Below are positions 7,851 through 51,611 of a stretch of 64,000 bases of DNA, piece by piece. The stretch spans positions 1,240,001 through 1,304,000 of the forward strand of contig NZ_CP016027.1 in the NCBI RefSeq assembly GCF_001663815.1. Direction: 5' to 3'. Below the pieces are notes generated by a model that was not told the DNA's origin, did no database searches, and was given only the letters and a program-made list of their open reading frames with translations. Origin of the DNA: Halothiobacillus diazotrophicus (GTDB lineage: Bacteria > Pseudomonadota > Gammaproteobacteria > Halothiobacillales > Halothiobacillaceae). Position numbers and translations under genes: made by a program. Every line of letters begins with the position of its first letter. The first letter of the stretch is position 1.

Positions 7851-8219
7851 TTAGATGAACAGTGAAACGGCGACCGTACGGGCAAACTGATAGAAACTGA
7901 TCGCGCCGGCCACCTCGACGCCAGGGCACAACTGCTCCGCGGACAACGTCGACTGGGCCAGAGAATCCGAACAGGCGATGAATCGCACCCCCTCGTCCTG
8001 ACAAAAGCCGAACAACTCCGCAAGATCCGGTTCGAGCTCAGCGTTTTGCGCAAGCCAGGCGATCCCGTGCTGCGTAAAGAAGATTGCGGCCGGATCCCCC
8101 AGCGCAACAACGGTTGCCGCCAGAGAAAAAGCCGCTCGCGCAGCTTCTGGCGCATCCTTGCTCAGGATCAGGGCGATCCCGGATCGTTCCGGGGTGGTTG
8201 TCGGGAAATCGGGAGTCAT
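7851..8219 (-). CDS. DsrE-family sulfur-carrier-like protein
   Basis: About 122 residues. The pattern fits the DsrE/TusD fold: a beta strand GIALILSKD, a long helix with AARAAFSLAATVVALG, the strand AAIFFTQHG, and a cysteine in VRFIACSDS, where DsrE-type proteins carry their conserved persulfide-accepting cysteine (about residue 83). A second cysteine lies in LCPGVEVAG. The ATG at 8219 overlaps the tusA stop as ATGA, so this start is preferred over one ten codons upstream. It is the third gene of a rhodanese-tusA-dsrE-like unit, an arrangement known in sulfur oxidisers, where it relays sulfane sulfur in the cytoplasm. Which DsrE subfamily it belongs to cannot be decided by eye. Confidence 0.75.
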   Translation of the reverse strand: MTPDFPTTTPERSGIALILSKDAPEAARAAFSLAATVVALGDPAAIFFTQHGIAWLAQNAELEPDLAELFGFCQDEGVRFIACSDSLAQSTLSAEQLCPGVEVAGAISFYQFARTVAVSLFI

Positions 8220-8458
8220 CGGCGGCAGACCAGAACAATCTTCAGCCAAGTGGCTCCTTCCTCGTCACGCCCGGGCTCCATGCGCAACAAATCATGCCCG
8301 GCCTGTTCGCAATAGGCCTTGAAATCCGCCTCGGCCCCCGGGTCGGTGGCCCAGACCTCAAGCTGAGCCCCGTCCTTCAGCGAAGAAATGGCCTTTCTGG
8401 CTTTGAGCAGCGGCATCGGACAGCGGAGTCCTCGTGCATCGACGATGAGGGTCGACAT
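8216..8458 (-). CDS. tusA: TusA-family sulfurtransferase
   Basis: About 80 residues with the defining motif DARGLRCPMPLLKARKAI, where the cysteine of CPMP carries a persulfide. TusA proteins take sulfur from rhodaneses or desulfurases and hand it to DsrE-type partners, either for tRNA thiolation or, in sulfur oxidisers, for dissimilatory sulfur transfer. The ATG at 8458 overlaps the upstream rhodanese stop (TGATG), and its own stop overlaps the dsrE-like start (ATGA). The three proteins are therefore translationally coupled, which favours the dissimilatory relay over a stand-alone tRNA role. Confidence 0.92.
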   Translation of the reverse strand: MSTLIVDARGLRCPMPLLKARKAISSLKDGAQLEVWATDPGAEADFKAYCEQAGHDLLRMEPGRDEEGATWLKIVLVCRR

Positions 8459-8775
8459 CACTCGGGGGCAACCAGCGGCAAACCGGAGCCCGCCCAATAC
8501 ATGACGCCCCCCTCCAAATTGAACAGCCGATCAATACCCTGCGCCGCCAGGAACTGGCAAGCCTGAGCGGAACGTGCGCCACTATGGCAATACACCACGA
8601 CATCCTGATCGGTCTTGAATTGGTCGACATTCATCGGGACCAGATGCAAGGGAACCAGCTTTGCCCCCATGATGATGCCGCGAGCGGTTTCCGCCGGACC
8701 ACGTACGTCGACGAGCAACACCTCGTGCATACGATCTTTCAGCTCTTCCGGAGCAATGCTTTGAAAACTAGACAT
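8458..8775 (-). CDS. Single-domain rhodanese-like sulfurtransferase
   Basis: 105 residues forming one rhodanese domain. The N-terminal MSSFQSIAPEELKDRM and LLVDVRGPAE match the CH2A region, and the active-site loop is CHSGARS (about residues 72-78), the six-residue loop type that acts on sulfane sulfur. There is no signal peptide, so it is cytoplasmic. It is the first gene of the coupled rhodanese-tusA-dsrE-like unit and probably loads TusA with sulfur. Confidence 0.92.
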   Translation of the reverse strand: MSSFQSIAPEELKDRMHEVLLVDVRGPAETARGIIMGAKLVPLHLVPMNVDQFKTDQDVVVYCHSGARSAQACQFLAAQGIDRLFNLEGGVMYWAGSGLPLVAPE

Positions 8776-37301: not shown

Positions 37302-38858
37302 ATGAGCGCCATCCAACAAGCGAACACCCACCCCGAGTACACGTCGCATGCGGCGAAACTGGACTCATTAGCCACTTTCTTCAACCGTAGGGGCGACGAC
37401 CACGACCCCTTTCCGGAGGAATCGAACCGCAGACGCAACAATGGACTGATGGACGATGCCATTGCCCGTACGGGCAAGCGGGCCAGCCAGGGGAAGACCC
37501 TCGAGCGCCGGCAACTCATCTATCTCTCGTTTCGCAAGGACGATATCGGTGAAGACGTGGCGCGCATCGCTTCCTCATTCATGTGGGATGTCACCCTCGT
37601 CCATGATTGCGATCAATTGCAGCGCGCATTGAAACATGCGCCGGTCAAGGTGGTTCTGGCCGATCTTCGCGACGCCGTATCCAAACTCGGCGCCTGTCTC
37701 GTACAGACAACCCACAAATACCCGAACGTCCAATGGGTCGGCCTGGTGGAACCGCAGGCAGCAGACAGCCCGACTTATGCAGCTTTCCTGCACTCATACT
37801 TCTTCGATTTCTGTTTCCTGCCCCTGGAACCGCTGCGCCTGTTCTTCTCGCTGGGACACGCCTGGACGATGGCCCGGGTCGCCGATATCCACGCCGACAC
37901 GGTTTCCGTCGATGCCGGCACGGCTGGGATCAATGAACAGGGTCTGATCGGCAGCAGCCCCATCATGAAGACCGTCCGCGCACATCTGAAACGCTATGCC
38001 CGAAACGACCTGCCTGTGCTGATCACCGGCCCGACCGGTACCGGCAAGGAAATGGCCGCACGCTACCTGCACGAACACTCGGATCGGCACGACCGCCCCT
38101 TCATCGCCGTGAACTGTGGGGCGCTGACGCCGAGTCTCGTGCAATCGGAACTATTCGGTCATGAAAAGGGCGCCTTCACGGGCGCCCATCAACGCAAAAT
38201 CGGGCGCGTGGAGGCTGCCGACGGCGGCACGCTGATGCTGGATGAGATTGGCGACCTCCCGCTGGAAACGCAGGTCAGTCTGCTGCGATTTCTGCAGGAA
38301 GGCGTCATCGAGCGCGTCGGGAGTGACAGGAGCATCCCCGTGAACGTACGGATCGTAGCAGCCACCCATGTGGATCTCGAACAGTCGGTCGCTGAAGGTC
38401 GATTCCGCGAGGATCTGTATTTTCGTCTCAACGTACTGCGACTGGTCATGCCCCCGCTCGCCGAGCGCGGCACGGACGTGGTCGAACTCGCCCAGCACTT
38501 CATCCACCGGTTTGCCGATGAGCTCGGCCTGGAGCACAAGGTTCTGTGCCCCGCAGCCCTGGCGGCACTCTCAGCGTACACCTGGCCGGGCAATGTCCGT
38601 GAACTCATGAACCGGCTGAAACGCGCCATCGTGCATAGCGACCGCCAGGCGATTGGCCCGGCAGATCTCGAGTTCACCACCCTGGTCTCCGAGCCTTTGC
38701 CCAGTTTGGCCCAGGCGCGCAACGAGGCGGAATTACAGGCACTGTCGCGTGCGCTGGTCACGACCAACAGCAATGTCACCGAAGCGGCGGAAATGCTCGG
38801 CATCTCCCGGGTTTCGATGCATCGCCTGATCAACAAGCACGGCCTGTCCGCCCCGTGA
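37302..38858 (+). CDS. VpsR-like sigma-54-dependent transcriptional activator
   Basis: 518 residues. After a disordered start (about 1-65) comes a divergent receiver-like domain (about 70-190) with an aspartate in VVLADLRDA. The AAA+ domain (about 212-445) has Walker A TGPTGTGKEMAAR, the sigma-54 loop GAFTGA, Walker B TLMLDEIGDLP and RFREDLYFRLNVL. The C-terminal Fis-type helix-turn-helix ends VTEAAEMLGISRVSMHRLI. The receiver resembles VpsR and FleQ-type proteins, several of which bind cyclic-di-GMP. It lies about 100 bp after cfa and at the head of the signalling genes that lead to the fap operon, whose upstream region has a sigma-54 promoter; control of fap by this protein is inference. 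Confidence 0.88.
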   Translation: MSAIQQANTHPEYTSHAAKLDSLATFFNRRGDDHDPFPEESNRRRNNGLMDDAIARTGKRASQGKTLERRQLIYLSFRKDDIGEDVARIASSFMWDVTLVHDCDQLQRALKHAPVKVVLADLRDAVSKLGACLVQTTHKYPNVQWVGLVEPQAADSPTYAAFLHSYFFDFCFLPLEPLRLFFSLGHAWTMARVADIHADTVSVDAGTAGINEQGLIGSSPIMKTVRAHLKRYARNDLPVLITGPTGTGKEMAARYLHEHSDRHDRPFIAVNCGALTPSLVQSELFGHEKGAFTGAHQRKIGRVEAADGGTLMLDEIGDLPLETQVSLLRFLQEGVIERVGSDRSIPVNVRIVAATHVDLEQSVAEGRFREDLYFRLNVLRLVMPPLAERGTDVVELAQHFIHRFADELGLEHKVLCPAALAALSAYTWPGNVRELMNRLKRAIVHSDRQAIGPADLEFTTLVSEPLPSLAQARNEAELQALSRALVTTNSNVTEAAEMLGISRVSMHRLINKHGLSAP

Positions 38859-39274
38859 TACGCATGAGCCAGGAATCCCCTCGCCCTTGGGCAAAGTCCC
38901 GCTCCGGTGCACGCTCCTGGCTGACGTCGAACCAGCCGCTCTATGATCCCCGTCCATCCGATGGCAATCTCGTTCTCGACCGGGAGAACCGTCCAGGACT
39001 TCCCTCCGGGCGCAACGCACCTCATCCCCCCCCAGAACACGATGACCAAGGTGCCTCCGCAACCGGATGGCTCGATCCCCCGAAGCGCATACCTGCTGCA
39101 ATGACACGTGGCATACCGCGCGGGCCTGCATGGACTATTGACATAGGGTCCAAACAGGTAACACCCTACCGAAATGGCAGGTTATTGAAAAAGCACGATG
39201 AAGTGCGCGGATCGATGGGGCAATCGGATGACCGGCAGCCCCCAATCATGTACGAGGATCAGGGAGCGCGGAAG
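38859..39274. other. Region between the VpsR-like gene and the kinase start
   Basis: 416 bp. An open frame covers it continuously with the kinase, but the encoded residues are proline- and arginine-rich and unlike any domain, and the best ribosome site is at 39275. A perfect TTGACA lies near 39139 without a matching -10 box. If the longer frame is real, the kinase would have an extra 140-residue N-terminal tail. Confidence 0.45.
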
Positions 39275-41311
39275 ATGGTCGATCGCAAAAAACGCTACAA
39301 GACGGAGGCTGGCGCCTTACCTGCCGAGGGTAAGAGCAAGATGCCCGGCATGACCGCACAACCGTCGCCCGATAGCGACCCGAACACCGTGATCCGCAAC
39401 TTGCAGGCCCATCAGATCGAACTGCAGATGCAGAATGAAACCCTGCGGCACGCTCATATCGAACTGGCGGAATCGCGGGATCGCTACGCCGAACTCTATG
39501 ACCTGGCCCCCGTCGGTTACATCGCCCTCAACCGCGATGGTCTGATTGCCGAAGTGAACCTGACCGCCACCGCCATGCTCGGTCTTCCACGGCGTGCGTG
39601 CATCGGACGCCGCTTCGCTCAGTTCGTCGTTCCCGATGAGCAGGCGTACTGGTCCGCACAGTTTGCGGACATGGTGAAGCATACCGACCGCCAGCGGTTC
39701 AATCTGACCCTGGCGGGTGCCGACGGCACCATCATCCATACCCGCTTTGTCGGCATCGTTCGAGCCTCCAGCATGTCCGATATGGTCGTCTGGCTCATGT
39801 TTCTCGACGTCTCGGACCGACGGGCGACCGAAGATCAGCTCCGCAAGGTCTCCCTCGCCGTGGAGCAAAGTCCGGACAGCATCATGATCACCAATCTTCA
39901 GGGAATCATCGAATTCGTCAACCCCGCCTTCACGCAGATTTCCGGATATACGGCCGAGGAAGTCATCAATCGCACCCCCCGGATGCTGCAGTCCGGATTG
40001 ACGCCTGAGGAAACTTACCGATCACTGTGGCAATCTCTTGCCCGTGGCGAAATCTGGCGGGGCGAATTCGTCAACCGGCGCAAGGATGGTCTGTACTCCA
40101 TCGAATCCGCAACCATATCCCCCCTGCGACAAGCCGATGGCAAGGTGACTCATTACGTGTCGGTCCAGAAGGATATTACCGAGCTCAAACGCACCCTGAG
40201 CGAACTGATTGCGAGTCGGAATCGACTCCAATTGGCGCAAGAAGCGGCGGGTTTTGGCATCTTCGATCGGGACATTGCATCCGGACGACTGGAGTGGGAC
40301 GCGCGTGCGCGCGCAATATGCGGAGTGGATCTGGATACCCCGATCAATTTCACAACGTTCCTGGATCTGGTTCATCCGGATGATCGCAGCAAGATTCATG
40401 CAGCCATCGAGCGCGCGATGAAACCCGATCAGGGTAACGGCGTCTACCGTGTGGAGTACCGGATCATCAACCCGAAAACCGGCGAGGAACGCACCCTGAT
40501 GGCCAACGGCCAGACCTTTTTCGAAGGGGGACGCCCAACCCGGATTGTCGGCACAATTCAGGACATCTCCCAGCAGCGTGCCATGGAAGCCGAACTGAAA
40601 AACCGCCGCCGCGCCATGGATCGACTGGTTGATCAGCAGGTTGCGGCACAGACGGCCTCGGCCATCGCCCACGAGATCAATCAACCCCTCGCCTCGATTT
40701 CCGCCTACAGCGAAGCGGCAATCAACATGTTGCGCGCCGGTCATCTGGACAAGCTCGAACATGCCCTGCTCGGTGCAGCCGCTCAATCACAAAAAGCCGG
40801 ACAGGCTCTGCACGAGTTGCTCGAATTCCTCCAGGATGGCGAGATCATTCTCGAGCCGACGGATCTGAACGAGGTGATTCATGAAGCGCTCGCGGAAGTC
40901 GAGGATAGCGGATATACCGACTTTCATACCGCGGTGGAACTGATGCCCGATCTGAAGCCGGTCATGGCCAACCGGCTGCAACTGCAGAAAGTACTGATCA
41001 ACCTCGTCATGAACGGGGTGGATGCCATGCGGGAAGCTGGAATCTCCCCGGCACACATTACCATCCGGGTCCGTACCATGATCGATGACGGAATGGCCAT
41101 GACCACCATCCAGGATTCCGGGCCGGGCGTGAGCGCCGAGACGGCCAAGCGAATCTTCAACCCATTCTTCACCACCAAGACTAACGGCATCGGCCTGGGT
41201 CTTGCCATCAGCCGGGCCCTCATCGAAGCCCAGGGCGGGCGACTCTGGGTCGATATCGAGGCGGGTGAACGGGGTGCCGTTTTCCACTTCACACTACCCT
41301 TCGCATCATGA
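39275..41311 (+). CDS. PAS-domain sensor histidine kinase (FixL-like)
   Basis: About 678 residues from ATG 39275 (AGGGAG nine bases upstream). A coiled region (HQIELQMQNETLRHAHIELAE) leads into three PAS domains: about 70-175 (LYDLAPVGYIALNRDG), 190-310 (AVEQSPDSIMITNLQGII, GYTAEEVI) and 325-440 (QEAAGFGIFDRD). The kinase core has the phospho-histidine in SAIAHEINQPLASISAYSEA, the N box LINLVMNGVDAM, the G1 motif DSGPGVS and the G2 motif NGIGLGLAI. No membrane helix or signal peptide, so it senses a cytoplasmic or diffusible cue. Its stop overlaps the FixJ-like regulator start (ATGA), identifying the partner. No haem-binding PAS signature could be confirmed. Confidence 0.9.
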   Translation: MVDRKKRYKTEAGALPAEGKSKMPGMTAQPSPDSDPNTVIRNLQAHQIELQMQNETLRHAHIELAESRDRYAELYDLAPVGYIALNRDGLIAEVNLTATAMLGLPRRACIGRRFAQFVVPDEQAYWSAQFADMVKHTDRQRFNLTLAGADGTIIHTRFVGIVRASSMSDMVVWLMFLDVSDRRATEDQLRKVSLAVEQSPDSIMITNLQGIIEFVNPAFTQISGYTAEEVINRTPRMLQSGLTPEETYRSLWQSLARGEIWRGEFVNRRKDGLYSIESATISPLRQADGKVTHYVSVQKDITELKRTLSELIASRNRLQLAQEAAGFGIFDRDIASGRLEWDARARAICGVDLDTPINFTTFLDLVHPDDRSKIHAAIERAMKPDQGNGVYRVEYRIINPKTGEERTLMANGQTFFEGGRPTRIVGTIQDISQQRAMEAELKNRRRAMDRLVDQQVAAQTASAIAHEINQPLASISAYSEAAINMLRAGHLDKLEHALLGAAAQSQKAGQALHELLEFLQDGEIILEPTDLNEVIHEALAEVEDSGYTDFHTAVELMPDLKPVMANRLQLQKVLINLVMNGVDAMREAGISPAHITIRVRTMIDDGMAMTTIQDSGPGVSAETAKRIFNPFFTTKTNGIGLGLAISRALIEAQGGRLWVDIEAGERGAVFHFTLPFAS

Positions 41312-41925
41312 AAATGCACGACACCGTTTTCGTCGTCGACGACGACCCTGCCATTCGCGACTCGCTCTCCCTGTTGCTGGAACAGGAGGACATGACCGTG
41401 GTGAGTTACGAGAGCGCGGCTGAGTTCCTCAAGAACATCGATGCCCTCGTGCCCCGATGCTGCGCCATCATCGATATCCGGATGCCGGATATCGACGGCC
41501 TGCAATTGCAGGCGGAAATCATCAACCGAGGCATTCTGCTGCCGGTGATTTTCCTGACGGGTCACGGCGACATCCCGATGAGCGTCCGGGCAATCAAATC
41601 CGGCGCCGTGGACTTTCTCACCAAACCCGTCAGCGGCCACACTCTGCTGGAAAGCGTGCATGTCGCCCTGCTGGAAAGCGAACGGCTGTTCTCCCAAGCC
41701 GAAGCCAACCACTCGGCCCGATCCGTACTGGAAAGCCTGACCGACCGGGAGCGGGAAGTGATGAGCCTGGCGATCGAGGGCCGATCGAACAAAGAGATCG
41801 CCCGCCAGCTGGGCATCAGCCATCGCACGGTGGAAATCCACCGCGCACGTGTCATGCACAAAACCGGCGCCGACTCCCTCGTCGAACTCGTGCGCATCGC
41901 CGAGCTGGGTACAATCCCGTCCTAG
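41308..41925 (+). CDS. FixJ-family response regulator
   Basis: 205 residues: receiver domain (about 4-122) with VFVVDDDPAIRDSL, phospho-acceptor aspartate in CCAIIDIRMPDIDGL and lysine in VDFLTKPVSG, then a LuxR-type DNA-binding domain (about 137-200) with SLTDREREVMSLAIEGRSN and GISHRTVEIHRARVM. It is translationally coupled to the PAS kinase. Its targets are unknown; the closest candidates are the neighbouring cfa, Hsp20 and fap units. Confidence 0.93.
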   Translation: MKMHDTVFVVDDDPAIRDSLSLLLEQEDMTVVSYESAAEFLKNIDALVPRCCAIIDIRMPDIDGLQLQAEIINRGILLPVIFLTGHGDIPMSVRAIKSGAVDFLTKPVSGHTLLESVHVALLESERLFSQAEANHSARSVLESLTDREREVMSLAIEGRSNKEIARQLGISHRTVEIHRARVMHKTGADSLVELVRIAELGTIPS

Positions 41926-41978: not shown

Positions 41979-43679
41979 TCATGCCTTGCGTACCAGCATC
42001 GGGCCCGGGGCGGGAACAACCTCCGGCGCGGGATGATGGATGACGAATCGATTACCTCCGGCGCGCTTGGCCACATACATGGCCTCATCGGCATTTTTCA
42101 GCAGGGCAACAGCATCGCGCGCATCCTCGGGATAGATACTGACACCGATACTCGCCCGGACCCGCGCAGCCGGATGGCAGGCCAGCGGTCGGGCCAGTAC
42201 GCGCAAGATTCGTTCGAGCACCTCCCGCAATTGCCGTTGATCCTCGAAGTCATCCATGACCAGAACAAACTCGTCCCCACCATAGCGGGCCACCATGTCG
42301 CTCTCACGCAGGCCCCGCTGAATGCGCCGGGATACCTCCTGCAGCACCCGATCGCCGATCAGGTGACCGAAGGTATCGTTGATGGGCTTGAACCCGTCAA
42401 GATCGAGCAGGCAGACTGCCACCTCCCGCCCACTTCGCCTGGCCTGGGCCAGGGCAAGCGTCAAGCGTTCCTCAAGCAGCACGCGATTCGGCAGTCCCGT
42501 CAGAACATCGTGATGCGCCATAACCTGCAATTGTGCCTGCGAGGCGTGCAGCGCCCGGTTCACCCGACGCGCATGCCCGTACATCAAAAGCAAGGTCAGG
42601 AGGAACAGGGCAAACAGACCCATGATCGCCTCGAACGAATGGTGATCGATGTAGCGATGCCACGCCTGCCACTCGCCCTGTACCGCGGCGGCGGCTGGGT
42701 GCCTGACGGCGGGCGACACGACACGCGCCGACGTTATCCCGGACATACCCTCAAACCCCGCTGGCGACAACGGTGGCGACCAACCGGCGTAATTATTCTG
42801 CCGGGCGGCCGGGTCATCCGGCTGCATGACCAGCAAAGCGGCCGCCACCTGATTGATCAGCTTCATGGAAACATGCGACGCCGCAGTCAGGATCCACTCC
42901 GGGTAAAGTTGAGTCGACAGGCGAAACGGAAACTCCGGCCGGATCATCTCGTTGAGCACGCGTATCCGCGATAGATCCAATCGTCCGGCGCGCACCATGG
43001 ATTCGAGTACGCCGGTTCGGACAAACCCTGCATCGGCGTGTCCTTCCAGCACAGCAAGTACGCTCCGATCTTGCGGATTGCCCAATGCCATGAGCCGACT
43101 GTCCCGGACCACATCCACGCCATGACGGCTGAGGAGTCCCTGCTGGATCTGGAATCCATCGAACGAATCCCGAACGGAAAATGCGATGGTTTTGCCGCGC
43201 AGATCTTCAAGATGCTGTATATCCTGGCGTTGGCGCTGCGTGAACACGACACCGCCAAACTTGTTCAAGGGTACAGACTGACCTTGATTGATCAGCGTAC
43301 TGACATTGGATAGTCCGTAGGCCGCCTTCAGCCGGTTGGTATAGGCCGGATGCACCAGCAGGAAATCCAGCGTTCTGGCCTCCAGGGCGCGCTGAAGATC
43401 GGAGACCCCGACCGGCAACAGGACAAAGCGATGCCCAGGGACATGCGTGGACAGATAGCGCATGGTCGGTAACCACTGCTGATGAATCGCGCTGCGATCG
43501 AAATCGCTCAGAACGCCCACATAGACGGTCTGCTCGGCCATCCGCTCCTGGGCATGTGCAGCAGCGCCCCCGCCCAGTATTCCCCACATCACGACCACAA
43601 TCAGCCAGCACACGGGCGACATCCGGTTCGCACCCGCCAGAAGAATGGAATGCAGCAGTTTTCGCGGCGTATCGGTCAT
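41979..43679 (-). CDS. Diguanylate cyclase with PhnD-like periplasmic sensor domain
   Basis: About 566 residues from ATG 43679, preceded by GGGAA. A membrane segment near residues 20-40 is followed by a periplasmic domain (about 50-300) of the phosphate/phosphonate-binding PhnD type (VYVGVLSDFDRSAIHQQWLP, FLLVHPAYTNRL, LRGKTIAFSV, ADAGFVRTGVLESM). A second helix (about 370-392) and a GGDEF domain (about 405-550) complete it. The active motif is intact, ARYGGDEFVLV. The RESD sequence five residues before it is an RxxD inhibitory site. It should make cyclic-di-GMP in the cytoplasm in response to a bound periplasmic ligand. Confidence 0.9.
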   Translation of the reverse strand: MTDTPRKLLHSILLAGANRMSPVCWLIVVVMWGILGGGAAAHAQERMAEQTVYVGVLSDFDRSAIHQQWLPTMRYLSTHVPGHRFVLLPVGVSDLQRALEARTLDFLLVHPAYTNRLKAAYGLSNVSTLINQGQSVPLNKFGGVVFTQRQRQDIQHLEDLRGKTIAFSVRDSFDGFQIQQGLLSRHGVDVVRDSRLMALGNPQDRSVLAVLEGHADAGFVRTGVLESMVRAGRLDLSRIRVLNEMIRPEFPFRLSTQLYPEWILTAASHVSMKLINQVAAALLVMQPDDPAARQNNYAGWSPPLSPAGFEGMSGITSARVVSPAVRHPAAAAVQGEWQAWHRYIDHHSFEAIMGLFALFLLTLLLMYGHARRVNRALHASQAQLQVMAHHDVLTGLPNRVLLEERLTLALAQARRSGREVAVCLLDLDGFKPINDTFGHLIGDRVLQEVSRRIQRGLRESDMVARYGGDEFVLVMDDFEDQRQLREVLERILRVLARPLACHPAARVRASIGVSIYPEDARDAVALLKNADEAMYVAKRAGGNRFVIHHPAPEVVPAPGPMLVRKA

Positions 43680-44071
43680 TTGTTCCCATTCCTCATCTTC
43701 CCCGCCCATCCCCGTGATACGGCGGTACGTAAACCGAACGTGATCCGGCCCCACGCCCGCGACTGGATCTGACCATGCGGCTTCGGCAAACCACGGCATC
43801 GCACCAAGCGGCGATATACGCGCCGGGCGATGATTCACTCTCTGAGACCGTTACCGTAGTCCCCCCCCTGTGGCCATCCAATACGGGTGACTCCCTAAGG
43901 GCGATCCCCTACGGGTCCCACCTTACGCAGCCGCCCTTATTTGCCGGACCCTCCAACGAATCTAGAGTGACTCAAGATATGGCGTCTCGTCCCAACCCAA
44001 TGGCCTGGGCCGCCATCCCTCATCCGTATCGAGCATCTTCGGGCGGACGTTTTTTCAGGAGGAGAAATCTC
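43680..44071. other. Divergent region between the cyclase and the DUF2934-Hsp20 genes
   Basis: 392 bp. It contains a run of eight C (43861-43868) and, at about 43942-43970, a weak TTGCCG/TAGAGT pair with 16-bp spacing that could start the plus-strand genes. Longer in-frame starts for the DUF2934 gene through this region are rejected because GGAGGAG directly precedes the ATG at 44072. Confidence 0.4.
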
Positions 44072-45507: not shown

Positions 45508-46845
45508 TCAGAGGATAAAGGGAATCTTGATACCGAGCGTGAAATCCGGCGCGTCGGGCGTCAACCCCACGCCCAGCGTCGTCACCAGGGTGGTGCGTTT
45601 GTTCAACGCGTAGGTCATCCCCAGATTGAAGGTCGCGGCGTTGGCATTACTGCCGATCAGCGCCTGCCAGGGTTGCCCGTCGTACTTGATCCGGGCCTGA
45701 CGCGAAATCTGGTCGCTGACTGACAGGGACAGGCTGGCCCGATCGTTCAGCGCGAAGGCCAGGCCGAGCGCATAGGAGAACGACTCACCCAACTTCACGC
45801 GTCCGGGGTTCTGCACGGAGGGATCGATGCCGATGTCGTTGAAATGCCGGGAGAGGTAGCCGGTATAACCGAAGTTCGTGAAGATGAGGGCCGGATCCAT
45901 GGTCTTGACCATGGACAGGGAAACGCCATATCCCCACAGGCCGTTCCCCGTGGCCTGCTTCGTCGGCACGGAAAACTGCACGAAGGAATTCCCCGAGGCG
46001 TCCTGCCCGGCGTTGATCGTTTCCCAACTGATGCCGTAAGGGGCGCGTCCGGTCGGCGCAATGACGCTGCCGGTCAGTACGATGTCGGGCCAATCCTGGG
46101 TTTCTGGCAGCAACCGGTAGCTGAGGTTGAATGTCGTATCGCCCGGCGTGACGGTGCTGCCCTGGGACAACTCCGCATAACTCGCCGCCGAACCGCCCGC
46201 CCCGCCTTTCTGATAGGTGATCTGACGTTGCAGGAAAGGCGTCGACACGCCGATGTTCCAGCGGGGCGTCAGGCTGTACCGGGCGGCCAGACTGTAAGTC
46301 AGGGTGTCGCTGGCCACCTTGTCCACGGAAATATTCCCCAGGAAAATCGAATCCAGCGCGAGAAAACCGTTCAGCGCCAGTTGATTGCGATCGTAACGGC
46401 TATAGGTGATCCCCCCCTCGATGACCAGTCGTCGATCGAAGGCCACATGCTCCTGCTGCAGAAAATCGTCCACGCTGCGCTTGGTCGCCTTTTCCTTGTC
46501 GGCGGCGGTATGGCCGACTTCGGAAGTCTCGCCGGCAGTCGTGTTGCTCGACGCTGCCGTGGGGCCGCCCGAGGGTTCGGCACGGGTCGTCTGTCCGTCC
46601 GGCTGGACACCCGCCGCCTTCAATTGAGCCTGTATCGCCAGCAATCGCGCATCGACCTCGCGCAGCCGACGGACTTCCTTGACGTAGCTCTCGCGGAGCG
46701 TTTGCAGCTCGGCGCTCAATGCATTGACATCATCCACCTCGTTCGCCTGCGTGGCCTGCGGTGCGGCCACCATGCCCAGCCCGACCGAAACAGCCAAGGC
46801 CAGGCCCTGCTTCAGGCCCGTCTGCATCACATGTTCCTTTCTCAT
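45508..46845 (-). CDS. fapF: FapF: outer-membrane pore for functional amyloid secretion
   Basis: 445 residues. Signal peptide (cleavage about residue 35), a heptad-like coiled-coil segment (about 38-73, LSAELQTLRESYVKEVRRL), a serine- and threonine-rich linker (about 78-125), then a beta-barrel with alternating hydrophobic strands ending in IPFIL, typical for an outer-membrane protein. FapF of Pseudomonas is a trimeric barrel with an N-terminal coiled coil that exports FapB, FapC and FapE, and this layout matches. It is last in the fapA-F order. AGGAA lies seven bases before the ATG. A general phenol-degradation-type transporter barrel would be the alternative name if it stood alone. Confidence 0.85.
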   Translation of the reverse strand: MRKEHVMQTGLKQGLALAVSVGLGMVAAPQATQANEVDDVNALSAELQTLRESYVKEVRRLREVDARLLAIQAQLKAAGVQPDGQTTRAEPSGGPTAASSNTTAGETSEVGHTAADKEKATKRSVDDFLQQEHVAFDRRLVIEGGITYSRYDRNQLALNGFLALDSIFLGNISVDKVASDTLTYSLAARYSLTPRWNIGVSTPFLQRQITYQKGGAGGSAASYAELSQGSTVTPGDTTFNLSYRLLPETQDWPDIVLTGSVIAPTGRAPYGISWETINAGQDASGNSFVQFSVPTKQATGNGLWGYGVSLSMVKTMDPALIFTNFGYTGYLSRHFNDIGIDPSVQNPGRVKLGESFSYALGLAFALNDRASLSLSVSDQISRQARIKYDGQPWQALIGSNANAATFNLGMTYALNKRTTLVTTLGVGLTPDAPDFTLGIKIPFIL

Positions 46846-46972
46846 GATTATTCCTTTTGTTTTTTGGGATTGATTGTCGGATCAGTTGAACACCACCCCA
46901 CCCACTCGCCCTGACCCAACCGACCTTCCGACGTCCAGAAGGCCGACGCCGGAAGCAGAATCGACAGTGGGA

Positions 46973-47845
46973 TCAGAGGCCGCGCAAGGTCGCCAATGCC
47001 ATACCCACCTGTTGCTTGAGATCCGCGCCGGGCAGGCCGGAAGCCTGACCGACACCGACCATCAGTCGTAACTGGTTCTGAATCTGCTGCTGATCGCCCG
47101 AGAGCTGGATCAACTGCATCGCATTACTGCCTCCACCAATCACCTGGCGGACGGTCGAGTCGCCGAGTTGAAGGGTGACGCCCGCCTGGTTGCCGCCGAT
47201 GATCCCCGCGCTGGCCGTGGCGCCACCCTGGCTGATCACGACCTGGGACGGCCCGCTGCCGGTGTTCGAGGCGTCGGTTGTCGGGACTGCACCACGCGCC
47301 CCGTAGGGTTGCACGGCCACCTGAAACTGGTTGGTGGCCCGATTGTCGTTACCGGCCACCTGGATCTGCTGACGCACCCCCCGGGTATCCTGCGCGGAGT
47401 GATCCTGAACCACGCCATCGGCGGCCACCTGGGTCGGCGTTCCCATGATCGTTACCATCGGCTGGAAGCTGACTGAAGGCTGCCCCTGGGAACGGTCGAT
47501 GCCCAACGTCATGCCCGCGCTCATGGCGCCACCGGCGGTTTGCCACTGGGACACCATCTGCACCCCGAAAAACACGACCTGCTGATTGTTCGGCAGGAAT
47601 TTCCCGCGCAGAACCGACAGCTCGGGGTCGGTCAGCGCCACGATGGCCGATTTTTTGGCGAAGGTGCCACCGGGGATATGCCCCGACACGGCGGTGTTGT
47701 CGGGTACGGGCGAGGCCGAGGCCAACCCGGCAAACAGGACACAGGACACGAGGGCGCCACCGACCACCCACGTCACGTCCCGTACGGTTTCCCGGTACTG
47801 TCGGTCCGGGGCTGCACGCCGAAAATTGCGCTTCGTATGATTCAT
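46973..47845 (-). CDS. fapE: FapE-like secreted component of the Fap amyloid system
   Basis: About 290 residues from ATG 47845, chosen because GGAGAG lies at good distance. After a signal or anchor segment (about 24-45, VVGGALVSCVLFAGLASA) comes a segment with LTDPELSVLRGKFLPNNQQ and VVFFGVQMVSQW, resembling FapE proteins. The C-terminal half is rich in glycine, glutamine and asparagine with strand-like repeats (VVISQGGATASAGI, VTLQLGDSTVRQVIGGG). Pseudomonas FapE is a minor fibre component. The assignment rests on position between fapD and fapF plus these motifs; sequence alone would be less certain. Confidence 0.75.
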   Translation of the reverse strand: MNHTKRNFRRAAPDRQYRETVRDVTWVVGGALVSCVLFAGLASASPVPDNTAVSGHIPGGTFAKKSAIVALTDPELSVLRGKFLPNNQQVVFFGVQMVSQWQTAGGAMSAGMTLGIDRSQGQPSVSFQPMVTIMGTPTQVAADGVVQDHSAQDTRGVRQQIQVAGNDNRATNQFQVAVQPYGARGAVPTTDASNTGSGPSQVVISQGGATASAGIIGGNQAGVTLQLGDSTVRQVIGGGSNAMQLIQLSGDQQQIQNQLRLMVGVGQASGLPGADLKQQVGMALATLRGL

Positions 47846-47930
47846 CGTTGACATCTCTCCATGCGGGGCAGTTGTCATCTGCACGGTTAAAGCAGCCGAT
47901 CTGTCGCCCGCTCTTGCGACTGCTGAGCGG

Positions 47931-48686
47931 CTAGAACAGATCGGCATGGGTAAATCCGAAATCCAGCAGTTCGGCCTTGGGGACGCCACCCGACCGTTCC
48001 TGCAGGTTTTTGGCACTGGGAATATCCGTAGCGTCCAGCAACGCCGTATGGCGATCGAAACCGGGGCCGATCACGGCAAAAATGGTTCGGGATGGCCAGG
48101 TCTCCAGAAATTTGGCCAGGGGATAGCGCCGATTGCCCAGGGCAGGATCGGCAATATGCACATACCCATCGCTGACGCTTTTCAGCACGACGAAATGGTT
48201 GTAGCCGTTCACGTTCATCAACACGATCGTCGGGACGTGGATCGACTCCAGACGCGCCAGATCGATGCGATAGCCGCGACCGCGATAACCCAGCTCAGCC
48301 AAGTATTCCTTCATGTCCAGCAGGGAAAAGCCCCGGGTCCGCACCAGTTCCGGATTGGCCACGCCCAACATGCCGGAAAGCACGGTTTCCTCCCCGAGGC
48401 GCAACCCGTAGGCGTAACGCAAAATCGTCGCCAGCGCCGCAGCACCACAGGAAAAGTCGTACTGCTGACGAACCACGTTCAGGTAACGCCGCTCCTGCAT
48501 GCTGATGACCGGTTTGGTCAGAATCGCGCCGTTCGGCAGGATGTCGCCGAAGCGGATCTCCGCCGCCCGAGCAGGTGCACCGACCATCCCGCCGGCAGTC
48601 AGAAGCACGACGAGCGTCACTGTCGCGAGCTGCGACTTTTTCGACGCCCGTTGGACCACAAGCCATTGGTTGAATAAACGCCGCAT
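47931..48686 (-). CDS. fapD: FapD: C39-family cysteine peptidase
   Basis: 251 residues with an N-terminal membrane or signal segment (about 20-42). The C39 domain is clear: the oxyanion glutamine and nucleophile cysteine in VRQQYDFSCGAAALATIL (cysteine about residue 81), histidine in GYNHFVVLKSVS and aspartate in VHIADPALGNRRYPL. In Fap systems this peptidase is required for amyloid secretion; its substrates are not settled. It lies 144 bp after fapC, across a perfect hairpin, and 85 bp before fapE. Confidence 0.9.
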   Translation of the reverse strand: MRRLFNQWLVVQRASKKSQLATVTLVVLLTAGGMVGAPARAAEIRFGDILPNGAILTKPVISMQERRYLNVVRQQYDFSCGAAALATILRYAYGLRLGEETVLSGMLGVANPELVRTRGFSLLDMKEYLAELGYRGRGYRIDLARLESIHVPTIVLMNVNGYNHFVVLKSVSDGYVHIADPALGNRRYPLAKFLETWPSRTIFAVIGPGFDRHTALLDATDIPSAKNLQERSGGVPKAELLDFGFTHADLF

Positions 48687-48748
48687 CGATCAATCCCCTG
48701 CGTTCTAGCCAAACATCCCCCGTAGGTCGTTGGAACCGGCCCCGGTGT

Positions 48749-48783
48749 CGTCTTTCCAGACAATCTCCTTGTCTGGAAAGACG
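48749..48783 (-). promoter_or_regulatory. Stable hairpin between fapC and fapD
   Basis: Arms CGTCTTTCCAGACAA (48749-48763) and its exact complement (48769-48783) with a five-base loop. On the minus-strand transcript it lies about 50 nt after the fapC stop and about 60 nt before fapD. There is no T run, so it more likely protects the upstream fapABC mRNA or marks a processing point than terminates. Confidence 0.75.
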
Positions 48784-48830
48784 GGGCAACGCCAGAAGCG
48801 TGCCCCGCCGATAGCCATCAAGCGGCGCAA

Positions 48831-50066
48831 TTACTCGCCGGTGCCGCCCTTACCGCAGCTCACGCAGGAGACCGCCATGGACAGGCTGTTGCTCTGCAGG
48901 TTGCCGGTACCGGCTGCCACGTTCACGCCGATGTTGCCGGCTGCCTTGGAGAAGGCATTCCCGCTCAGGGAAGCGTCATTCTCGGCATTGATCACGACAT
49001 AACGCGTGGTGGCAACGCTACCGCTCATCACGGAGCTCAGACCGATCATGCCCTGCTCCTTGAAGCCCAGGCTGCCGCCTTCGGAACCGCTTGACTTCAT
49101 GTCATGGGTACCGAATGCCAGTGCGCCGCCATCGCCATTCAGATCGGAGCCGCCCTGAGTTGCCGTATCCAGATCGATATGGCCGGTGACAGAACCGCTC
49201 GGATGGCTCGCACCGCTCCAGGTATCGGGATAGACATTGCCGATCTGGTCCATCTGGCCGGTGATGGTGGAGCTGGTGCGACCGCTGTACGATCCGCTGC
49301 CAGCGCCCTTATAACCGCCGATGCTGCCGCCCTTGAGGGTGACATTCACGAGATCGGTGTATTTCTCGGTACGGCCTTCGTTGCGGATGCTGTTGCCCGC
49401 AGAAGCCTGCGTGCTGTTGATGGACGCACTGGCTACCCGTGAAGTCGATACGGAAGCCGCCATCGTGTTCTTCTGGCCGTTGCCGGTACCGGAAGCCACG
49501 TTCACGCCGATGTTGCCGGAAGCGCTCTGGAAGGCGTTGTCCGCGATGGATGCGGTGTTGGTGACGCCGCTGTTCATGGTCGTGTTGCCCATGTTGGTCT
49601 GACCGACATCCACCGTTGCGGTGGACTGGCCGAACACGAAACCGGCATCAACTGCTGCCAGGGCAGCCGCATTGTCCTGCACGTTGGTATCGCCTGCAGC
49701 CACGTTCATGCCGATGTTGCCGCTCGCGTTGGTGCCGACGTTGTCACCGATCTTGGCGTTGTTGGTCAGCTTGACGTTATCCACCTCGTTGTTGGTGATG
49801 AGTTGCTGATCCATGGCATTGGCGGCTGCTTCCGCATTCACCGTGATGTCGCGGACATCGTTGTTGACGATGTTGTCCGTGACGTTCTTGTTGATGGTCT
49901 TGTTGACCTTCAGGTTGATGTCTTTCTTGACACTGATGTCCTTGCTGATCTTGATCTTCACATCCGGCTTGCCGTGATGCCCTTCGTGGTCATCGGCCAT
50001 GGCCGGAGCAGAAACCAGTGCCGCGATGGCAGAGGCGATCAGCGTCATCTTGATTTGCGTTTTCAT
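48831..50066 (-). CDS. fapC: FapC-like major amyloid subunit
   Basis: 411 residues from ATG 50066 (AAGGA eight bases upstream). Signal peptide 1-24 (ending APAMA), a histidine- and lysine-rich segment (25-60), then three imperfect amyloid repeats at about 103-137, 171-206 and 364-399, each with a core like SGNIGVNVASGTGNGQKN. The linker between repeats one and two is about 33 residues; that between two and three about 158 residues and rich in glycine, serine and threonine. The C-terminus has CVSC (401-404), a CxxC. Three repeats separated by variable linkers are the FapC architecture, and its place third in the operon agrees. Confidence 0.88.
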   Translation of the reverse strand: MKTQIKMTLIASAIAALVSAPAMADDHEGHHGKPDVKIKISKDISVKKDINLKVNKTINKNVTDNIVNNDVRDITVNAEAAANAMDQQLITNNEVDNVKLTNNAKIGDNVGTNASGNIGMNVAAGDTNVQDNAAALAAVDAGFVFGQSTATVDVGQTNMGNTTMNSGVTNTASIADNAFQSASGNIGVNVASGTGNGQKNTMAASVSTSRVASASINSTQASAGNSIRNEGRTEKYTDLVNVTLKGGSIGGYKGAGSGSYSGRTSSTITGQMDQIGNVYPDTWSGASHPSGSVTGHIDLDTATQGGSDLNGDGGALAFGTHDMKSSGSEGGSLGFKEQGMIGLSSVMSGSVATTRYVVINAENDASLSGNAFSKAAGNIGVNVAAGTGNLQSNSLSMAVSCVSCGKGGTGE

Positions 50067-50112
50067 AGTAACTATCCTTCTTGTTGGGTTTACATCGATC
50101 ATGAAACCAGCC

Positions 50113-50766
50113 TCAGGGCATCGAGATTGAGAAGTGATTGGCCGTCATATTCCCGATCCCTGAAACCTGGTTGATTTGGAGTACACCGCTGAATCCGGAT
50201 AACGCGCCCTCGCCGATGACGGCGCGATACCGATCCGGGATGTGCCCCGCCCTCCGCCCAGTATCCTGGCCGGAGAGATTCGGCAACGGCTTCGGGATTC
50301 CCGCGCCCATTGCACGAATTCCTGACGACGACGAGCCACCGCCCCCCATCGACATCGTGTTCACCTGTGCATTGCCTGCACCACTGACCTGATTGATGCC
50401 AAGCACACCGGCCGAGTGGCTGAATGCCTGTCCGCCGATTTCCGTTTGCGCGTCCAGCGCAGCGCCGCCCGACACATTGCTCGGCTTGTGGACGCCAAGG
50501 GGTGTCACCGGCCCGGCAACGACGCCACCGCCTACCCCGATTTGTCGCTGATTTGCCTGGATATTGCCGTCGCCGGCCGCCGTGTTTACCGCCATATTCC
50601 CGGATGCGCCGCTCCCGACCTGCCCATTGATACGAGAACTGTCCAGCACCTGGAGCATCCAGTCGTACTCGTCCGCCTGCGCGGTGGTACCGAGCAGCCC
50701 CAGAACCAGACCCAAGCTCAGAATGAGTCTGCGCGGGCGAATCTGCCGGGACAGGTGTGGGCTCAT
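50113..50766 (-). CDS. fapB: FapB-like minor amyloid subunit
   Basis: 217 residues with a signal peptide (cleavage about residue 31, TTAQA). Three imperfect repeats at about 44-78 (SGNMAVNTAAGDGNIQAN), 106-140 (AGVLGINQVSGAGNAQVN) and 183-216 (SGVLQINQVSGIGNMTAN) share the Fap pattern of a strand, GN turn and asparagine or glutamine ladder. Linkers are short and glycine- and serine-rich. In Pseudomonas FapB is the proposed nucleator. Its start overlaps the fapA stop (ATGA), and fapC follows after 46 bp. The FapB name is from order; a FapE-like role cannot be excluded. Confidence 0.8.
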   Translation of the reverse strand: MSPHLSRQIRPRRLILSLGLVLGLLGTTAQADEYDWMLQVLDSSRINGQVGSGASGNMAVNTAAGDGNIQANQRQIGVGGGVVAGPVTPLGVHKPSNVSGGAALDAQTEIGGQAFSHSAGVLGINQVSGAGNAQVNTMSMGGGGSSSSGIRAMGAGIPKPLPNLSGQDTGRRAGHIPDRYRAVIGEGALSGFSGVLQINQVSGIGNMTANHFSISMP

Positions 50767-51272
50767 GGCCGGGCGCCTCCCGACAACAGCCCGCTGGCAC
50801 CCAGAGCACCGGAGACGGTTGGCGCGATTCCACCCGTTGCCGAACGAATGGCACTACCCGCAGTGCCCGCAGATGCGCCGCCCTGCGTGGGTGTCAACAG
50901 GCCGGTCGTTGTGGCCTGAACGTTCTCCCGAACCAGTTGCGCAGTCAGCGGCCCTTGGCGAGGCGACGTGACCACCCCCGGTGCGTTGGCTGAGAGCGCG
51001 GCGTAGTCGGCATTCGACAATTCCGCCGACCCCAGACCCTGTGCGATTTCCGCTAGCGGACTCGGGTTCAGCATCACGGCCTTCGATGGCGGCATGGCAC
51101 GAGCGGCCGGCCGTGCCGGCACATTGCGCAGGATAACGATGTCGCCCGGATCGGCCTTGACCTGATTCTTGACGCCCGCCGCCTGGGCTTCGCGCCAGAG
51201 CGGGAGGCTGAGAATCAGTGCCGCGCCACTGAACAGGCAGCCCTGCCAAACACATTGAATTCGATTAGCCAT
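50763..51272 (-). CDS. fapA: FapA-like periplasmic protein
   Basis: 169 residues with a signal peptide (about 1-31, ending REAQA). The middle contains KADPGDIVILRNVPARPAAR and MLNPSPLAEIAQGLGSAELS; the C-terminal third is low-complexity, rich in glycine, alanine, serine and threonine. In Pseudomonas FapA is a periplasmic protein that restrains FapC and affects fibre composition. Sequence similarity is weak and the name rests on first place in a complete A-F operon. GAGG lies upstream of the ATG, and the sigma-54 promoter at 51328-51343 is about 55 bp away. Confidence 0.7.
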   Translation of the reverse strand: MANRIQCVWQGCLFSGAALILSLPLWREAQAAGVKNQVKADPGDIVILRNVPARPAARAMPPSKAVMLNPSPLAEIAQGLGSAELSNADYAALSANAPGVVTSPRQGPLTAQLVRENVQATTTGLLTPTQGGASAGTAGSAIRSATGGIAPTVSGALGASGLLSGGARP

Positions 51273-51327: not shown

Positions 51328-51343
51328 AGCAACATCGATGCCA
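51328..51343 (-). promoter_or_regulatory. Sigma-54 promoter of the fap operon
   Basis: On the minus strand TGGCATCGATGTTGCT: the -24 GG and -12 GC elements are spaced exactly ten bases apart and the consensus TGGCAC-N5-TTGCT is matched at all but one defined position. Predicted transcription would start near 51317, leaving a leader of about 45 nt before fapA. Confidence 0.75.
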
Positions 51344-51436
51344 GAAAATGAATCGCTTTCAGATCAGCGAATTACATCGAATAGCCAGGCAAACGGATGA
51401 CGTTTTGTTTCAGTTTCGGAACAGTTTTTCGGTACG

Positions 51437-51468: not shown

Positions 51469-51611
51469 GAGTGCAACTAATTTGAGACAGTACGCTGGGG
51501 TACAACACGGATTGGTACAGGCGCTCACAAGGCGCCATCAAACAAAGCCCCTAGAAAATCAAGGGATAAACGCGGGATGACAAGACCCGTCACCCCATGT
51601 AATAAGCCCGC

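Follow-up and report, generated by a model that had tools for sequence, protein, structure and literature searches.

In Pseudomonas (UK4, PAO1 and PF07) the functional amyloid Fap is encoded by fapABCDEF, six genes in a fixed order, with three repeats in both FapB and FapC, a CxxC motif at the C-terminus of FapC, a C39 peptidase (FapD), a coiled-coil barrel (FapF) and an RpoN-type promoter ahead of fapA. The same features recur in an operon of Halothiobacillus diazotrophicus, located at 45508–51272 in a 64,000-nucleotide stretch of contig NZ_CP016027.1 (positions 1,240,001 to 1,304,000; hereafter, the window, to which all unprefixed coordinates refer). In comparison to the Pseudomonas systems, identity is low (35–36% in Foldseek between the predicted model of the window FapF and the crystal structure), conserved hairpins follow fapC, and a putative activator lies 6.6 kb away.

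Fap has already been described in chemolithotrophic sulfur oxidisers, together with a proposed role in sulfur attachment (PMC3792158, PMC10853474). The Acidithiobacillus fap genes were listed in 2013 and differ from those of the window, which are canonical, in encoding a FapC with 4–8 repeats and a FapB with two, and in a deviating operon order (PMC3792158). The closest described regulator is BrfA of P. fluorescens PF07, a Fis-family σ54 activator linked to fap (PMC9207406, PMC13101488); the fapA promoter of P. fluorescens is RpoN-dependent (PMC9207406), and BrfA, which drives fap and senses cyclic diguanylate (c-di-GMP), occurs widely in Pseudomonas (PMC13101488). The putative activator of the window shares an N-terminal VpsR domain and an AAA+ domain with VpsR of Vibrio cholerae (PF20161; PDB code: 7v2b). 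A survey of GTDB v226 found fap to be widespread, almost always with three repeats (PMC12822426). As one more host of a system surveyed on this scale, the operon is well supported but unremarkable, and its control module matters more. We hold with high confidence that the locus is a complete Fap operon with a likely role in biofilm matrix and attachment, and propose that it is accompanied by a σ54 promoter before fapA, a VpsR-domain activator, an activator-binding dyad and RNA hairpins.

Genes of the fap operon

The six intact open reading frames lie on one strand in the canonical order fapA-B-C-D-E-F:

50763..51272, minus strand: fapA, 169 aa, putative periplasmic chaperone (NCBIfam NF058617, E 1.5e-8, below the curated cut-off)
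50113..50766, minus strand: fapB, 217 aa, minor subunit/nucleator with three repeats (NF058557, E 6e-20)
48831..50066, minus strand: fapC, 411 aa from the ATG at 50066, major amyloid subunit (NF058558, E 2.1e-65, above the cut-off)
47931..48686, minus strand: fapD, 251 aa, C39 cysteine peptidase (NF058616, E 3.7e-73; Pfam PF03412, E 2e-20)
46973..47845, minus strand: fapE, 290 aa from the ATG at 47845 (NF058559, E 6e-17)
45508..46845, minus strand: fapF, 445 aa, outer-membrane barrel with an N-terminal helix (coiled coil) (NF058560, E 3.3e-115)

Each gene has a hit to the NCBIfam profile of the corresponding Fap protein, and the complete operon in Pseudomonas order that an earlier note on this DNA had read from the sequence is thus borne out. 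The profile search which that note had called for returned matches for FapA, FapB and FapE, whose failure to match, along with an unrelated barrel, would have refuted the assignment. The starts of fapC (50066) and fapE (47845) were refined by direct reading of the sequence and its ribosome-binding sites; an alternative in-frame start of fapC lies upstream at 50102, and the start of fapB shares a 4 nt overlap with the end of fapA. A signal-like peptide can be read at the N-terminus of all six products.

Further features of the individual proteins agree with the assignment. FapA relatives from Guyparkeria, the sister genus, show 36–51% identity to the window protein across the aligned part. Three GN-rich repeats are directly legible in each of FapB and FapC, as first noticed in the earlier note. 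The C-terminal CxxC motif of FapC is CVSC at residue 401, with both cysteines invariant in ten aligned FapC sequences, and a profile of FapC relatives matches the solved FapC fibres 9NQD/9U4U (E 2e-26) over repeats 1–2 and 3. The C39 catalytic residues previously recognised in FapD correspond to Q74, C80, H164 and D180, which are invariant across nine FapD sequences; apart from Peptidase_C39 on FapD, a Pfam scan of the operon products gave nothing above threshold. FapF matches the crystal chains of PDB entries 5o67/5o65 by sequence (E 1e-83). Its predicted model, of moderate confidence (mean predicted local distance difference test score, pLDDT, 59), places a helix at residues 33–77 (45 residues) ahead of the barrel, in agreement with the layout already suggested, and the top 18 Foldseek matches of this model are all FapF (TMt 0.85–0.91). 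The barrel therefore does not belong to an unrelated porin family.

A C39 peptidase and a barrel are also found in the Fil (FilB/FilC) pilus-type system, and FapD and FapF do give hits to the NCBIfam models for FilB (E 7e-36) and FilC (E 8e-15), respectively. However, the Fap models score far above them (245 versus 124 bits for FapD; 385 versus 55 bits for FapF), the operon also encodes FapA, FapB, FapC and FapE, and the nearest solved folds of the barrel are all FapF. The score gap and the four further Fap genes refute a Fil system, to which we assign practically no probability.

Some observations count against the assignment as Fap. FapC alone exceeds its curated NCBIfam cut-off and the other five proteins fall below theirs; a structure prediction of FapC from 8 homologues was set aside as unusable (pLDDT 33); and expression and amyloid formation are predictions from sequence. 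Even where a profile stays below its cut-off, it is the best match for its protein. Moreover, none of the 369 genomes searched in the class, including those that carry fap, reaches the FapF cut-off, and the Fap cut-offs therefore appear to be tuned to Pseudomonas and narrower than the family.

Probable promoter, candidate enhancer and putative activator

The promoter, the candidate enhancer, the regulator and the hairpins discussed further below were overlooked in the earlier reading. The elements proposed to control the operon are as follows:

51328..51343, minus strand: σ54 (−24/−12) promoter TGGCATCGATGTTGCT, almost perfect, ending 56 nt ahead of the fapA start
51406..51423, minus strand: candidate activator-binding dyad TGTTCCGAAACTGAAACA, 10/12 core bases, with its start 80 nt upstream of the −24 element
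51472..51489, minus strand: weaker possible second dyad TGTCTCAAATTAGTTGCA, 9/12 by eye, with half-site TGTCTCA at −146
37302..38858, plus strand: σ54 activator, the proposed fap activator, with VpsR domain, AAA+ domain, Fis-type helix-turn-helix and GAFTGA motif (Pfam PF00158, PF20161, PF02954)

TGGCATCGATGTTGCT is the only strict σ54 match in the 64-kb window, where 0.19 would be expected, and RpoN is encoded in the host genome. Strict sites (TGG[CT]-N7-[TC]TGC) occur within 400 nt before the first gene at 15 of 18 fap loci, compared with a mean of 0.74 and a maximum of 4 in shuffles. The weak sites of L067, L068 and L073 are excluded from this count, which carries a small bias from L018, L066, L070 and L071, where the assumed first start codon was shifted by 50–120 nt after the site had been seen. 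As judged from sequence, fap transcription very likely starts at this promoter.

The putative activator follows fap closely in its distribution. Within the order, fapD was found in 11 of 27 genomes and a close homologue of the activator in 10, all ten inside those eleven; the single fapD genome without it is a 79% complete assembly. In the congener Halothiobacillus sp. LH_M7 (contig JAGXHU010000056.1; locus L016, genome G008), which also carries the operon, the activator is a reverse-strand gene directly downstream of fapF, the same convergent place that BrfA occupies (PMC9207406); Guyparkeria has it upstream of fapA instead. At 13 of 14 fap loci outside the family, a σ54 activator was present in a stretch no longer than 20 kb, in genomes that encode only 5–15 such genes each; Aeromonas caviae likewise has one near fap. 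In a tree, a branch with 100/99 support separates 20 fap-linked activators from 28 others drawn from the same genomes, with other VpsR-type proteins that are not linked to fap left out. The VpsR domain was detected in 16 of 19 fap-linked activators. The window protein is likened to BrfA by its domains, its locus and the published description, and c-di-GMP binding is predicted by analogy. In contrast to Vibrio VpsR it retains GAFTGA, and it goes with a σ54 promoter and fap rather than with Vibrio polysaccharide genes.

The dyad consensus, TGTnTCA-N4-TGAnACA, was resolved from a word repeated at −158 and −81 of the −24 element in Guyparkeria promoters, and its enrichment was scored on 13 loci outside this defining set. 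The sum of the best dyads at the held-out loci is 130, versus 96.6 (standard deviation 2.6) for shuffles, none of 500 of which reaches 130, and the best copies cluster near −81 and −150 to −170. Several other loci have their best copy in the latter range, comparable to the position of TGTCTCAAATTAGTTGCA. Within its region the window copy, TGTTCCGAAACTGAAACA, scores best (p 0.008). At the level of whole genomes, the sole match with at most one mismatch lies at fap in each of G012 and G038, as does the sole exact match in G036. A first enhancer word, GGTGTATCA, was dropped as too narrow and partly circular, and the dyad took its place.

Taken together, we consider it fairly probable that a VpsR-domain σ54 activator, a −24/−12 promoter and the dyad constitute an ancestral, near-obligate control module of Fap across the class Gammaproteobacteria (in the GTDB sense) rather than a speciality of Pseudomonas, and that Fap is generally gated by c-di-GMP, with a predictable enhancer. 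Several findings speak against the control proposed for the window operon. The window activator is separated from fapF by 6.6 kb, with two-component, GGDEF, Hsp20 and PAS genes intervening, and the window dyad is imperfect. Nor is the dyad exclusive to fap: an exact copy, TGTATCACTGTTGAAACA, is found ahead of a gene for a type IV pilin in G008 (contig C17, L126:1501-1518), where it could be a second target or the site of another activator; the fap promoter of G008 itself is absent from the assembly.

With ten σ54 activators in the host genome, the distance to fapF and the imperfect dyad would also agree with service of the promoter by a different regulator, such as a FleQ-like protein or another host activator. 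This seems improbable to us, given the strict co-occurrence of the proposed activator with fap, its adjacency in relatives and across families, its grouping in a single clade and the BrfA precedent (PMC9207406), all of which argue for the protein encoded at 37302–38858.

Fap reviews say little on regulation, a 2025 review mentioning neither BrfA nor RpoN, and in the literature covered BrfA is described only in Pseudomonas. No report of an activator of this kind with fap outside Pseudomonas was found in the literature searched, which did not cover the Microbiol Res 2024 BrfA paper. The broadly conserved module, suggested by sequence statistics and published precedent, appears to be the part most worth following. 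Were it general, c-di-GMP would offer a way to predict and switch Fap production in many bacteria, and the regulated promoters could be found by searching for a simple motif.

Between the activator and fapF the window encodes a diguanylate cyclase whose sensor domain is of the PhnD type (41979-43838, minus strand), a possible local source of c-di-GMP. Directly after the activator, with overlapping ends, come genes for a PAS histidine kinase and for a LuxR-type response regulator (38855-41925, plus strand); this pair is absent beside the activator in L016. In Aeromonas caviae (L076:5643-6785) a transposase gene is situated between the VpsR-type activator and fap.

Hairpins and proposed mechanism

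The gap between fapC and fapD holds a further element:

48749..48809, minus strand: two tandem RNA hairpins (fold z −3.35)

Both are conserved stem-loops, shared by Halothiobacillus and Guyparkeria. Compensatory changes are seen at 10 of 26 pairs across 8 loci, the 26 pairs including a third, weaker outer helix, and the covariation score exceeds all 500 shuffles and all slid versions. There is no U-run 3′ of the hairpins, which by sequence are thus not an intrinsic terminator; protection of the fapC mRNA or limitation of read-through is therefore likelier than full termination.

By homology with Pseudomonas, FapA–FapF would be exported by Sec, the periplasmic subunits would be chaperoned by FapA, and secretion would be licensed by the peptidase FapD. 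FapB, FapC and FapE would then cross the outer membrane via FapF, a trimeric coiled-coil barrel, and FapB and FapC would polymerise through their three imperfect repeats into matrix fibres. Expression would begin in the region of the σ54 promoter, as the sequence supports, and could be switched on by the BrfA-type activator binding the dyad ~80 nt upstream in response to c-di-GMP. The hairpins, by protecting fapC mRNA or cutting read-through, may provide the subunit in excess of the secretion machinery.

Distribution, genomic setting and role

The host genome (2.91 Mb, one contig) encodes a strong NifH. FapF was detected in 2 of 10 Halothiobacillus species and in 13 of 272 genera sampled across the class, and FapD in 9 of 11 Guyparkeria genomes. 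In Halothiobacillus the operon is located in a variable segment, bounded on one side by purT and tRNA-Leu(CAA) and on the other, in the window and in G006, by genes for a low-molecular-weight phosphatase, an APC permease and dxs. The same genes flank the segment in G006, which lacks fap. By eye, the same tRNA-Leu-bounded segment of G006 (L123:2700-11300) carries an insertion-sequence-like transposase and HipBA-like genes, which suggests a variable hot spot.

This variability, with a transposase, HipBA-like and other genes in place of fap between tRNA-Leu(CAA) and the phosphatase gene in G006, and the presence of fap in so few Halothiobacillus species could conceivably reflect a recent horizontal arrival in the host strain. 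However, the G+C content of the operon is no different from that of its flanks, and FapF diverges much as core genes do, with 83–84% identity to the sister species (Dxs 86%, PurT 88%) and 62–67% to Guyparkeria (63–64% for the window Dxs). Inheritance with loss within the family accordingly fits better, and we regard recent arrival as improbable. Among plasmid records, few fap loci were found besides the Aeromonas caviae record pKAM479_3, which is filed as a plasmid yet is chromosome-sized (4.9 Mb). One genome, G288, contains two fap loci. In the first (L065) the activator is present and fapF is separated from the remaining genes; in the second (L072) the genes detected are a piece of fapD, fapE and fapF only.

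The encoded fibre likely contributes to the biofilm matrix of this sulfur oxidiser and to its attachment to surfaces. The soxXA and soxB genes reported earlier are confirmed, with soxX, soxA and soxB of the window exceeding curated cut-offs; the tusA-dsrE-like genes named beside them are upheld in part, through a TusA-like open reading frame (8216-8497) recognised by motif only. These sox genes, and the Fap proteins in the sulfur-adhering vesicles of the sulfur oxidiser F. caldus, proposed as an aid to sulfur attachment (PMC10853474), would by analogy suit a fibre used mainly for attachment to solid sulfur or minerals rather than for general biofilm cohesion. On the other hand, Fap is spread over 13 of the sampled genera, its best-known hosts are heterotrophs such as Pseudomonas, and sulfur oxidation does not require fap, since only two of the ten Halothiobacillus species have it. 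We therefore find such a specialised function rather unlikely and favour the broader matrix and attachment role. Halothiobacillaceae inhabit sulfidic and mine-tailings waters (e.g. PMC10086054), in which a biofilm based on amyloid could be important for the oxidation of sulfur and the production of acid.

Seven fap loci, the window not among them, encode a small secreted protein (~100–140 aa) directly ahead of fapB or next to it:

L062:15266-15580, minus strand: small secreted protein beside fapB
L063:4863-5198: the same
L064:14748-15167, minus strand: the same
L071:4848-5213: the same
L074:14478-14846, minus strand: the same
L069:7029-7367: the same
L072:19739-19939, minus strand: the same

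Two examples tried gave no Pfam or NCBIfam match. The protein has an LWDE motif followed by a GN/Q-rich tail, and a DxxLxxxxG stretch like that of FapE, and is possibly an undescribed further Fap component.

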